The position numbers were made by a program, and so were the translations under genes. Under the pieces are notes generated by a model. The model ran no database searches. It worked only from the letters and a program-made list of their open reading frames with translations, and was not told where the DNA came from. From Aptenodytes patagonicus (lineage: Eukaryota; Chordata; Aves; Sphenisciformes; Spheniscidae), in contig NC_134974.1 in NCBI RefSeq assembly GCF_965638725.1, positions 2,440,143 to 2,504,142 of the forward strand: DNA of 64,000 nucleotides, read 5' to 3'. Below, piece after piece: positions 21,925-30,500 of this stretch. Each line of letters starts with the position of its first letter. The stretch's first letter is position 1.

Positions 21925-24900
21925 CTATATCAGCGGGTAAGAGGCATAACTGGCGATCCCGCAATGGTTCGCGTGGTTTCTTGACATGCGGATATAGCCC
22001 TCGTCACCAAAACGCACACCCCAACTTTTGGGACCGGAAACAGACAGACAGACATGAGAAAAATTGAATTCCTTTTTCTGGAAGTGAAGCGGCAGCTTTA
22101 TCAACATGACAGCCTTGAAGTGTTTTCATTCACTGCTTCACGGGATTTCTAATCCCGTATTAAGTTATGACAACGCTCATCAACATAAAGGGAACTTAAG
22201 GCGGGTGTAAGTGTATTTTAAATGCATTTACAGTTCCTTCACGCTGCTAGGATGCTTTGACGTGGCTAAGCGTGAACCCTTAGGGAACAGTTTAAGGACC
22301 AATACCAACTTTCAACTCTACAACACCCCCCACTGCACAAGCACCCAACTGATCTCCCTCTCATCTGTATAAATACCGGTCGTTACAGAATTGTGAGGAT
22401 GTCAGCCTGAGCGGTGGGAGGTTGCCTAGGAGAAGCCTACCCCTATAGATAGTGAGCATATAGGTAACGAGTTCGGTGATACACGGTCGTGCCTCTACCT
22501 GTTTTTCACAAGCCAGTAATCCTTATCATTTAGGGTGCCGTAGCCGATCACGAGCACTCCGTGATTCACCTCCTGTGTGCACCGGGGGTCGTCATACACA
22601 CCTGGAAGAAAAGGAGTTTTGGAAGCGTGTCATCAGACCAGAAGACCTCATCTTTGAGTCGTCAGCGGGACCGAATTCAACCTGCAGCATAGTCACTAAC
22701 GCTGCTACCTTAGGGTTTTGTCATATTGGTGCCTTCATCCAGGAATTAAGCCCCAACTTGCCAAATTCCACCAAACTTCATAAGCTTTACGTGCAGAGAG
22801 ACACAGAAGGCTGTGAAGAAGATCTCCAGGGTAAAAGGACATACCTGACCTGTACAAGAAGAAGGTGGGCTGGGTGGCGTCAATGGCGACAGAGACTGGT
22901 CCGATGTTGGCTACAGCATCTTTCAGGGCGGCTTCGTCGGCGTATGGGAGCTCAACGTACTTGGAGCAAGTGGCGGCTCGTGTGGAAGCATTGTATCGAC
23001 ATGTGCCATTCTGGTGGGAACAAGGGGGGGTTGAGAAGAGGAGCATGAAGAATTCACCAGGAACATCTCAAGACTTTCAGGTACGTGTTTTCTATCAGCT
23101 CTCTTTTACCCTGTGCTACCCCGTTCTTCACTTTTCTTTGACCACCATTTTTCTATACACAGGATTACAGAAAAGATGGCTGGAAGGACCCGAAGAGACC
23201 ATCTTGTCTATCTCACTTCCCCACACCGAGAGCGGCCAAACCATTTCAACAGAATTCGCTGCCTTTTTTTCTAGAAACCTCCAATCACAATACTCCTAGC
23301 ACTTCCCTAGAGAAACTGTCCTTGCTTCCTCATCCATCCCATCAGAAGGCTCCTCGTCATGTTTAACCTAAATTTCTTCTATTGTAAATTAAGCCCACGG
23401 CTTCTCATTCTCCCTCTGGACACAGAGAACGGCATCTTTTGTCTCTGTAGCTGCCTTATGCATGTTTGAAGACTTGTATTCCACTTTTCTCTCTTGGACT
23501 GAGCTGCTGTTACTTTGACCTGTTTCCACAGGCCGTGTTTTCAAGACACCGGGTCATTTCAGGGCCTCTCTTGTCTCCGGCCATCAAGACTCTCAGCACT
23601 AGGATCTTTATTTTCTTATGGCTCTTTCCTTACGACCTTGCAGCAGTCATACAGCATCTGTTACAGGCAACTTTTAAAAAAACGATTGTATGAACGTCGT
23701 TCACCGGAAACCTCTGCCCACTGAAATGGTAGAAATATTAATATCCCATTTTTCAACTACAGAAGATGGAGTAATACAGAGAGCTGAGAACAGGACCCAG
23801 GACTCCTGTCACATTTTTCCCTTCCGTGTAGTACATTGCCTCATAATTTATGTAGGACAGAAATAAACATGCAGAAATTCTGGCTCCCAGTCCAGTCATT
23901 CACCTATGAGGAAAAAAAAAAGTCTAAAGGTCCCTTCCCCGGGTCTGAAAGAATCAGCTGCAAAGGCTGAGAACATGACACGAGACTGGTAGAAACCAAG
24001 ACAGAGGGAAATCAGTGGGAGAGGAGGAGAAGGGTGTCTACGCAGGAGAGCAGAACGAATGGCCGTGTTGCTTCCACGCTCGTGTGTTCCGCAGATTTCA
24101 CGTGCTGTCTAGGTCCGATGCCTACCTGAGCTGTGTAGGGGTAGGAATCGTCTGAGTCAATCCCCTGGTTGTCGATGATGTACTGGAAAGCACAGGTCAT
24201 GAAACCTCCACTGCAGCCTTTGTTCCCATACATCATGGAGCAGTCAACGAGGTTCTGGGTGCTCAGGGACACCAGCTTCCCCGTCTTCAGCTTCACCTGG
24301 GCTTCGAGGGCTCCCACGGCACTGAACGCCCAGCACGACCCACAGGCGCCCTGGCAAAAGCCCCAGAGATGCTCAGACCAAGCACGGGACCGAGACACGA
24401 AGAGGCACAGAGGGAGCTTCGCACCTGATTCTTCACATCCGTGACGCATCCCTTCTCCCTCCAGTCCACCGTGTCCGGGACTTTCCCGCCAGGCTGTGGT
24501 CGGTACGTGGAGGTCCGGTTTGACCGAGGAGCGACGTTCAGCCCAGTTAACAAAGCTGCCACTTCCTCGCTGGTCTGGTGGGAAAAGAAAACACCGGCTC
24601 ATGATCTCCTTGTCTCTGGTAAGTCCTACACTGGGTGTGTTGGAGGTGGATTTCCCTTGAACAGTCTGAGCTGCAGGAGTTAGCAGGTTTGTGGAGTCCT
24701 GGGCTTTTTATTTTTTACATTTAATTTCTAGCCATTCATTGGAAAGGGCAAGAAAAAGAAAATACAAAGCTTAACTCCAGCGCCAAAAATCCCTAGAAGC
24801 CGGTATGTTTCATTAAACAACACTACAACCTTGGAACATCGAAGAGGGGTGATTTGCAAATATATATAATGACCAGGACCAGGTCCGCGCACCCCAAATG

Positions 24901-27527: not shown

Positions 27528-30500
27528 CTAGATCTGGGGGTAAGCGCTGTAGCTGGCAATCCCGCAGTGGTTTCCACGGTTCCTCGCCATCCGGATATAG
27601 CCCTGCTCACCAAAATGCGCACCCCAACTGTTGGAAGAAGAAGGAAGCAAAAATTAGACAACAGGAGGCAGCTGCCTCCTTCCGCACCACCCCTCACCCT
27701 CACTTTTTTCTCTCCCCACCCCTTTTTTTAAACTTTTGTTCAACTCATGCTTCCTCCCCAGCAGCCAGAGGAATAGCCAAATTGGCATCTTTTGGCCAAA
27801 AAGGCTGAACCTCCTGACTGCTTCCCTGCCAGATTTTGTTGCCACTAACTCTTCTAAGGGGGGGCGCAGAGGAAAATCACTTATTTTCTATGTGCTGGAG
27901 TGAGTCAAGACCACCAGGAAAACACCAGGTAAAGGTGAATGGATTAGTTTTGTATATTAAAAATACATTATTTAAAAAAAAAAATCCTACCAAGGACAGA
28001 GATGAGAGACAGAGGAGGAAACGGGGGGGGTTTAGCCCAGCCCTGACATGAGGATAAAGGAGCTTTGTCGACAGAACTGTCCACAGTTGGGATTTTTTTT
28101 TTTGTTGTTCTTTTTTAAAAAGATAATGGTTTTCAGTTGCTGAATGTAGCTTTGCTGACATCGCAGGTTTGGTTTTTTTCCAGAGATGTGTCTGTCTGAG
28201 CAGGACTCTTCCGTTTCAGCACTTTGTTTCTTCTTGTTCTGCATTTTAGACAGTGAAAAACGCATTCACAAAATACATTTTAATGCAAGGGGCAGCCCGG
28301 CTGCAATGATCCTTGAGGCTGTGCCTCCAAATTGGCCGAAGGAGGGGGTTCGCCAGCATGTCCCCAAATCAAACCAGCTCGGTTTCTCTCTCCGAGAAGC
28401 ACCAGCCCTTTGCGCTGACTCAGCATCCAGGAATGTTGGAAACCCTGGTGTTTCCTACAGAGCAGAAATCCCATTTTTTGAGCCGCCTCGCAGCACTGAG
28501 GAGTTAGCAGGTGCGTTTTGGGTGACATACATCGATTTGGGTTTCTAGGGCTTAATCAAGGGCCCTTTACACCGCGGTGGCGATGGAGCCGAGCCCTAAA
28601 CACGTCTAAAGAAAGCTGATGGGCATCTAAAAGCGCATCGCTGGCACGTCTTTGAAACCTCCAGGGTGCCCCTCGGAGCGGAGGCTGAAAGGAAAAGCTG
28701 CTCGGCGGCTGGGTTTGCTGTACCTGTTTTTCACGAGCCAGTAGTCCTCCCCATCCGAAGAGCCATAGCCGATGACGAGCACGGCGTGATTCACCTCCTG
28801 AGAGCAGCTCGGGTCATGGTAGATACCTGGAAGGCATTTGGAAACAGCCTTTGGACAACTTGCCCTAAGTCACTGCCCGAACGGGAATTAAATTCACTCT
28901 TTGGGAGGCGTCACCAATGCCTGTCGCCAAGAATGAGGGCAACACAAGCTAAACGCAAGTCAAAGCTGAAATAATTTATATTTAAGGAAGCTGGGTCACG
29001 GGAAAGAAAGCACATCCCTTTCTTGAGATCCCCTAGAAGACCCACCAGCTTTGTACAAGAAGAAGGTGGGCTGACTGGCATCAATGCTGACAGAGATGGG
29101 TCCCACGTTGGCAACGGCATCCTTCAGCGCGGCTTCGTCGCCGTGCGGCAGCTCGACGTACCTGGAACACGTGGCTGCCCGCGCCGTCGGGTTGTAGTGG
29201 CACGCACCGTCCTGGCAAACGAAGGTAAGGGGGAAAACGCGTCAGATCCTGCGCAGAGTCCTGCTCTGCGTTATGTGAGTCAGAACTAATGCTCGCGGCA
29301 TTAAAGACGGACAATTCCATGGTTTTCCAAAGTGGATTTCCTCTGGAAGCAACAGGACTATTAATTCCTCCATTTTAAGCTGAGCCAGCCTAAGCGTTGC
29401 CCAGATCCGATGCCTACCTGAGCCGTGTAGGGGTAGGAATCGTCCGAGTCAATCCCCTGGTTGTCGATGATGTACTGGAAAGCTTTGGTTCTCCATCCAC
29501 CACCGCAGCCTTTGTTCCCATAGCTCCTGGTGCAGTCAACGAGGTTCTGGGTGCTCAGGGACACCAGCTTCCCCGTCTTCAGCTTCACCTGGGCTTCGAG
29601 GGCTCCCACGGCACTGAACGCCCAGCACGACCCACAGGCGCCCTGGCAAAAGCCCCAGAGATGCTCAGGTGCTGCCCCACGGGACCAAGACGTGGGGAAG
29701 CACAGAGGGAGCTTCAAACCTGGTTCTTCACATCCGTGATGCATCCCTTCTCCCTCCAGTCCACCGTGTCCGGGACTTCGCTGCCAGGCTGCGGTCGGTA
29801 CGTGGAGGTCCGGTTTGACAGAGGAGCGACCTTCAGCCCAGTTAACAAAGCCGCCACTTCCTCGCTGGTCTGGTGGGAAGGAGCACGGAGGCATTTGCGA
29901 CGTGCTGAGGTTTACTTTGCGCAGCAGGAGAGCGGATCCATCCACGCATCCCACCCCACCGAAAGGACCAGGTTTATCCTCGCAGCCTCCGGGGACTGAG
30001 GCACGTGGTTGCGGCATCATCAACACGGCGCGTTTCATCCCCCTCGACCAAACAGATGACTCCACGCTTGAGCCTCACGGCGCGGCCGGCACCTACCATG
30101 TCTCCCAGGTGGTTCATGCCCAGCTCGTAGGAGTGCAGCCCCAGCGAGTGCTCCAGATTATGCAGCATCACGAGCCGCAGGTTCCTCTCCCACGTCGTGC
30201 GCCGGTCCCCTTCCTCTTTCTGAAATCAAACGCAGCCTCGTGGTGTGCAGCAACAGCCCCTGCAGCCGTTTCACCCCGTTTTATCCCACAAAAGCTTGTC
30301 GGGAGCCCCTGCCAAACCACCCCTGGGAACCAGCAGTGCCTCGAAGCGCCGTCGGCTCTTCTCCTTGCTGCGTGATGCGGCGGATGGTCACGCTGGAGCA
30401 GCACCCACCACATCGGCACCCCCAAGCCACCTCCACCCCACCAAGATGCCCCTACCTCGTGGCGGTACTCCTTGCCGTAGGTTTTCTTCCAGAGCTGCCA

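Follow-up and report, generated by a model that had tools for sequence, protein, structure and literature searches.

In the genome of Aptenodytes patagonicus, two cathepsin S (CTSS) genes stand head to tail on the minus strand of a 64,000-nucleotide stretch of DNA (assembly GCF_965638725.1, contig NC_134974.1, forward-strand positions 2,440,143 to 2,504,142), which we call the window and whose own numbering is used throughout. Through most of their first four exons the two copies, A (21930-25617) and B (27528-30581), are close to identical, and through their last three they are widely diverged; within the near-identical part sits a short island of exon 4, crowded with differences, that encodes two residues of the S2/S3 substrate pocket. 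Cathepsin S itself is active at neutral pH and on the invariant chain. Judging from sequence, we would put about an even chance on the view that this is an old tandem CTSS pair in which the 5' halves were converted while selection held, or drove, the pocket patch of exon 4 apart. An initial annotation had described tandem CTSS copies with a burst of some 13 substitutions over about 57 base pairs (bp) of exon 4; both genes proved to be intact, with seven coding exons each, and the burst is rather sharper than first described, with 14 differences in 48 bp.

Exon 4 is 225 bp long in each copy (24126-24350 in A, 29418-29642 in B) and carries 16 differences, of which all but two lie at 24192-24239 in A and the partner interval 29484-29531 in B. 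When 16 differences were scattered randomly over 225 sites, 14 of them never fell in any 48-bp window in 200,000 trials, the maximum being 12. On one side the island adjoins an identical run of 137 bp (24240-24376, equal to 29532-29668), made up of the first 111 bp of exon 4 and the last 26 bp of intron 3, so the identical flank once put at about 100 bp holds good; the other flank, once given as about three differences in some 80 bp, comes down to two differences, both silent, in 66 exonic bp. The 17 codons of the island divide into seven that change the residue, two that are silent and eight that are unchanged, and it is really two clusters, because the unchanged codons include a central run of six, YGNKGC. 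Read from A to B in human CTSS numbering, the replacements are S57T, M58R, M60S, S67G, F70W, M71R and C73K (57 and 58 were counted in the human alignment, and 58 and 60 hinge on the placing of a one-residue gap), and the island peptides quoted earlier agree with the translation. Four codons differ at two or three bases (TGT/AAA, TTC/TGG, ATG/AGC and ATG/AGA), and transversions are in excess, at 11 of 14 changes against 36 of 86 in exons 5-7 (P = 0.019). A retains the human CTSS residue at 13 of the 17 codons and B at 10; where human CTSS resolves the direction of change, three island changes fall on B and none on A, the corresponding figures in exons 5-7 being 13 and 8.

Genome assembly is known to be at risk where tandem segments are long and near-identical, and an assembly or consensus error in one copy might in principle mimic such a patch. 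The island is nonetheless in frame and free of indels and stops, each copy is anchored by different introns within one contig, and a genome search made with exon 4 of B alone returned no third near-identical copy among the candidates that scored best, which makes error a highly improbable source.

The contrast between the two ends of the genes is stark. Silent divergence between A and B (dS; Nei-Gojobori-type counts with Jukes-Cantor correction) is 0.035, 0.073, 0.10 and 0.096 in exons 1 to 4, and 1.26, 1.21 and 0.84 in exons 5 to 7; expressed as counts, some 8 of 135 silent sites differ in exons 1-4 without the island against some 48 of 81 in exons 5-7 (Fisher P = 4e-18). Trees, built from five proteins only, agree: when the island is left out, exons 1-4 set A and B at a distance of 0.04 (ultrafast bootstrap 97), whereas exons 5-7 set them at 0.37 (ultrafast bootstrap of A+B, 56), and the background of homogenisation that the initial annotation had proposed is thereby upheld. 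Two blocks make up the homogenised part. The first (25121-25640, 98.3% identical to 30085-30604) reaches from 23 bp ahead of the ATG through exons 1 and 2, with intron 1 between them, to a few bp into intron 2; the second (24111-24584, 91.2% identical to 29403-29879) takes in exon 3, intron 3 and exon 4, and stops about 15 bp into intron 4. Intron 1 is identical at 233 of 236 positions and intron 3 at 61 of 74; introns 2 and 4-6 are 41-56% alike under forced alignment and run, in A versus B, to 558 versus 227, 1115 versus 206, 243 versus 219 and 474 versus 1096 bp. No homogenisation is seen in A from exon 5 to exon 7 (21930-23010, introns 5 and 6 included): these exons are 75-78% identical to those of B at a dS of about 1.1, and A shares 86 of 121 residues with B there and 84 of 121 with human CTSS. 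They are nevertheless constrained, with a ratio of replacement to silent divergence (dN/dS) of 0.14. Because divergence at the 3' end is large and exons 1-2 and 3-4 are nearly alike, the pair looks old, or else both copies evolve fast, and on this alignment the 5' half holds at least two homogenised blocks, one with exons 1-2 and one with exons 3-4, and a dissimilar intron 2 between them. The homogenising agent would most simply be gene conversion, and the patch is, on that footing, an island inside the second converted block.

Both genes are models predicted from sequence with AG/GT exon borders. Copy A, with exons at 25492-25617, 25133-25255, 24425-24574, 24126-24350, 22845-23010, 22499-22601 and 21930-22024, would encode a prepro-protein of 329 residues in an open frame, and copy B, with exons at 30456-30581, 30097-30219, 29720-29869, 29418-29642, 29046-29211, 28724-28826 and 27528-27627, one of 330 residues, likewise open. 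An Inhibitor_I29 propeptide and a Peptidase_C1 domain are found in each (Pfam), the NCBIfam search returned no family for either, and the catalytic Cys25, His164 and Asn184 and the oxyanion Gln19 are present in both by alignment to human CTSS. Human procathepsin S (2c0y) is the best PDB match of copy B (E 8.5e-154), at 515 bits against 414 for procathepsin K, and in exons 5-7 both copies align nearer to human CTSS than to the CTSK of their own genome. Several smaller features accompany the pair. Exon 5 of A (22845-23010) carries the N-glycosylation sequons NGT and NAS at residues 209 and 215, which B lacks, and a propeptide sequon, NRT at residue 102, is common to both. The mature part has ten cysteines in A and nine in B, the extra one lying at codon 186 in exon 4 (24126-24350), human position 73, where it may be unpaired. 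In the 5' flanks (25618-25700 and 30582-30664) the alignment of A and B ends about 23 bp before the ATG, so their promoters may differ.

What the island alters is best seen against the human enzyme. The S2 pocket of human CTSS comprises Phe70, Gly137, Val162, Gly165 and Phe211 in the cited passages of PMC7565055, and contacts predicted in those of PMC10041539 add Trp26 and Met71. By alignment, A has Phe70, Met71, Ala137, Val162, Gly165 and Tyr211, and B has Trp70, Arg71, Ser137, Val162, Ala165 and Tyr211, so the human set of five is matched in full by neither: A holds three (Phe70, Val162 and Gly165) and B only Val162. The earlier mapping to human positions 70, 71, 137 and 165 is correct, as is the claim of radical change at two S2/S3 residues, where codons 183-184 read Phe-Met in A (24198-24203) and Trp-Arg in B (29490-29495). 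The two S2 glycines of CTSS are described in PMC7565055, in the passages cited, as making the pocket wider and deeper, with Ala in CTSK. At these positions (137 and 165) A has one glycine and B neither, and the CTSK of the same genome has Gly at 137. Met occupies position 71 in five of the six L-type sequences compared within the genome (A, CTSK, a gene on contig C25, a CTSL-like gene and its intronless copy); Arg is found there in B alone. Copy B also carries, as Trp70, a Trp at papain position 67, which we take to be the equivalent of human CTSS 70. Mutants of fluke enzymes give this residue some meaning: in the cited part of PMC3708847, Trp67Leu in FheCL3 strongly lowered the preference for Pro at P2 and Gly at P3 and abolished collagen cleavage, and Leu67Trp in FheCL1 altered P2 little and raised P3 Gly. 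Given the pocket residues of B together with these Trp67 data, we expect a narrowed S2 and a modified S3 in B. Its P2 preference may be for acidic residues (via Arg71), or for small ones or Pro, and the measured precedent for Trp at papain 67 points to Pro at P2 and Gly at P3 instead of an acidic P2 (PMC3708847, same passages); the twin proteases may thus cut different targets. Because only one of the five S2 residues is in place, and the set is a trait of the human pocket, we call copy B, on present alignments, a CTSS paralogue by descent and not a CTSS by specificity.

Whether selection shaped the patch is a question on which the tests pull in both directions. In its favour, replacement and silent changes stand at 11.5:2.5 in the island and 38.5:47.5 in exons 5-7 (P = 0.008-0.041 over eight roundings, the ranges of P here and below reflecting the rounding of fractional counts). 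The surplus of transversions in the island (11 of 14 against 36 of 86) points the same way. If the whole of exon 4 was converted and then diverged, replacement change in the island (about 12 of 41 sites) outran silent change in its flanks (2 of 40; P 0.007-0.013). Other results weigh against a selected pocket patch. The dN/dS check proposed in the initial annotation, when run on the island, gave 1.22, indistinguishable from 1 (P 0.71-1.0), and per site the island differs weakly from exons 5-7 both in replacement change (P 0.019-0.063 by rounding) and in silent change (P 0.039-0.18 by rounding), the latter being if anything lower in the island. All these P values are nominal and uncorrected for multiple tests, and the island was picked after being seen. 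The changes had moreover been called confined to the S2/S3 pocket, a description that is too strong, as only two of the seven changed residues (70 and 71) line it by the cited passages of the two lists. Nor need a Trp alone shift specificity, because Leu67Trp in FheCL1 barely altered P2 preference in the cited results. Residues 137 and 165 (250 and 278 in the copies' own numbering) had been offered as added evidence; differences at two of the four named S2 residues of exons 5-7 are at chance level (P = 0.33), and these positions were rejected as independent support.

The same figures bear on a neutral account, in which conversion tracts by chance spared 48 bp of exons 3-4, the resulting mismatches hindered further conversion, the pocket change itself being accidental and the loop of B somewhat relaxed. 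We consider this account possible, if on the doubtful side. In a random-coverage model (12 settings of 20,000 runs each, with tract length and number assumed by us) a single interior gap of 30-80 bp arose in 1-8% of runs, with codons 183-184 inside 9-15% of these gaps; an island dN/dS no different from 1 suits it equally, and a neutral cause of such islands is discussed for another gene in the cited part of PMC3728101. It fits less well with the excess of replacement over silent change relative to the unconverted exons 5-7, with an island silent change that does not exceed theirs, with the lean of the resolved island changes to B (3 versus 0), or with the constraint on exons 5-7. Support for selection is moderate, and part of it depends on rounding: selection is favoured, not proved, because the ratio tests speak for it while the dN/dS and the random-gap model speak against, and the original suggestion of selected divergence survives to that extent.

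A further possibility is that the patch came into one copy through a short templated event or through conversion from a third cathepsin gene, as the transversion excess and the multi-base codon changes, unlike stepwise point mutation, might indicate. Searches of the whole genome with the 29-bp cores of either island found, among the best candidates scored, matches only to themselves within three mismatches, and the best matches to exon 4 of B were itself, A (94%), CTSK (73%) and one gene on contig C25 (70%); within the window the longest exact match to the island outside the two copies is 15 bp. No third donor copy was therefore found among the best genome candidates, though a donor could have been lost, and we think a templated origin improbable. 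CTSK was rejected as donor, its exon 4 differing by eye from both islands at the changed bases and being only 73% like that of B. GC-biased conversion was likewise rejected as a full account, because 7 of the 14 island changes keep the guanine-cytosine (GC) content.

Taking selection on the pocket patch as the preferred reading, the sequence of events would begin with an old tandem duplication of cathepsin S, after which interlocus gene conversion would have homogenised the signal peptide, the propeptide and the region of the catalytic cysteine in at least two blocks. Selection would have removed conversions across the patch, or driven fast change after one, in a stretch that encodes the 57-73 loop with S2/S3 residues 70 and 71. 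A would keep the more CTSS-like pocket, and B would be a derived enzyme in which Trp70, Arg71, Ser137 and Ala165 would narrow S2, make it more positive and place a Trp gate at S3, probably with a different P2/P3 preference as a result. A bolder extension holds that B is neofunctionalised in just this way, that selection has worked against continuing conversion over much of sauropsid history, and that the bird possesses two proteases for antigen processing or matrix cutting whose propeptides are almost alike and whose cleavage rules differ; we think this rather unlikely as it stands.

A peak of divergence at codons under selection is a recognised signature in duplicates that undergo conversion, and the red and green opsins are a described case (PMC3924837, in the passages cited). 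As in the exon 5 peak of the human opsins (Teshima and Innan, as reviewed in the same passages), converted neighbouring paralogues here show a short divergence peak at particular codons, and exons 1-4 of A and B are homogenised outside one narrow peak. The opsin peak, however, is common to orthologues and has a known functional effect, whereas the CTSS pair is known here from one genome's sequence; and the opsins' flanking introns are homogenised, whereas in the CTSS pair homogenisation is limited to some blocks and has left out the 3' half of the gene. Both copies resemble human cathepsin S (2c0y) in catalytic residues, propeptide, Lys64 and the YGNKGC core, and A in Phe70, Met71 and Gly165 as well; they depart from it in Tyr211 for Phe211 and in having one residue fewer between Cys56 and Tyr61, A also in Ala137 and B in Trp70, Arg71, Ser137 and Ala165. 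Copy B shares a Trp at the S2/S3 hinge with Fasciola hepatica FheCL3 and with zingipain, but these have His at papain 61 where B, by counting, has Lys64, and no Arg following the Trp is mentioned for them (PMC3708847, cited passages). Like cathepsin K, both human and of its own genome, B has Gly67, Ala165 and an aromatic residue at 70; unlike it, B keeps Lys64, has Tyr211 and Arg71 and scores nearer CTSS, and the CTSK of the same genome has Gly at 137. Two cathepsin S genes are also kept in one genome in Atlantic salmon (ssCTSS1a and ssCTSS1b; PMC7573153), but in the cited passages these are homeologues that arose by whole-genome duplication, lie on different chromosomes and were reported for their induction by interferon, and those passages describe no island or pocket change.

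Some other loci of the window and the 1.35 Gb genome (G000, with the window on its contig C26) deserve brief record. The CTSK gene adjoins copy B on its upstream side and on the same strand; its exons 4-7 (32298-33197, minus strand) were named by similarity to human CTSK, and it is a more distant relative of the pair. Positions 18539-18957 of the window hold a tandem repeat of 46-47-bp units. The intronless CTSL-like locus (L001, G000:C7:55968776-55969432) is an open frame of 293 residues and likely a retrocopy; two of the cysteines that its relatives conserve are substituted in it. The C25 gene (L009, G000:C25:3099000-3107000), 70% like exon 4 of B, is a further L-type cathepsin gene (GNNGCHGGYMTRAF). 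Two C1 peptidase genes in tandem (L011 and beyond, G000:C21:4836889-4838427 and 4843314-4844457) have near-equal scores for several exons and are possibly homogenised, and GPP34 (GOLPH3-like) exons with equal scores at G000:C33:26950152-26950475 and G000:C34:12930492-12930815 could be W and Z copies.

Paired CTSS genes are already known, and the present pair would be a new case of the conversion-island signature, in an immune protease; among titles and abstract openings of the open-licence literature, we found no bird or sauropsid CTSS pair and no conversion at cathepsin S. If real, it would be a compact natural experiment, in which the propeptide and the catalytic-cysteine region are near-identical and a few pocket residues differ inside converted DNA, and a population-genetic signature would be tied to a measurable change in protease specificity. 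Cathepsin S is an invariant-chain and peptide-trimming protease (PMC7573153, in the passages cited), and the finding, if real, would bear on the making of peptides for major histocompatibility complex (MHC) class II outside mammals.

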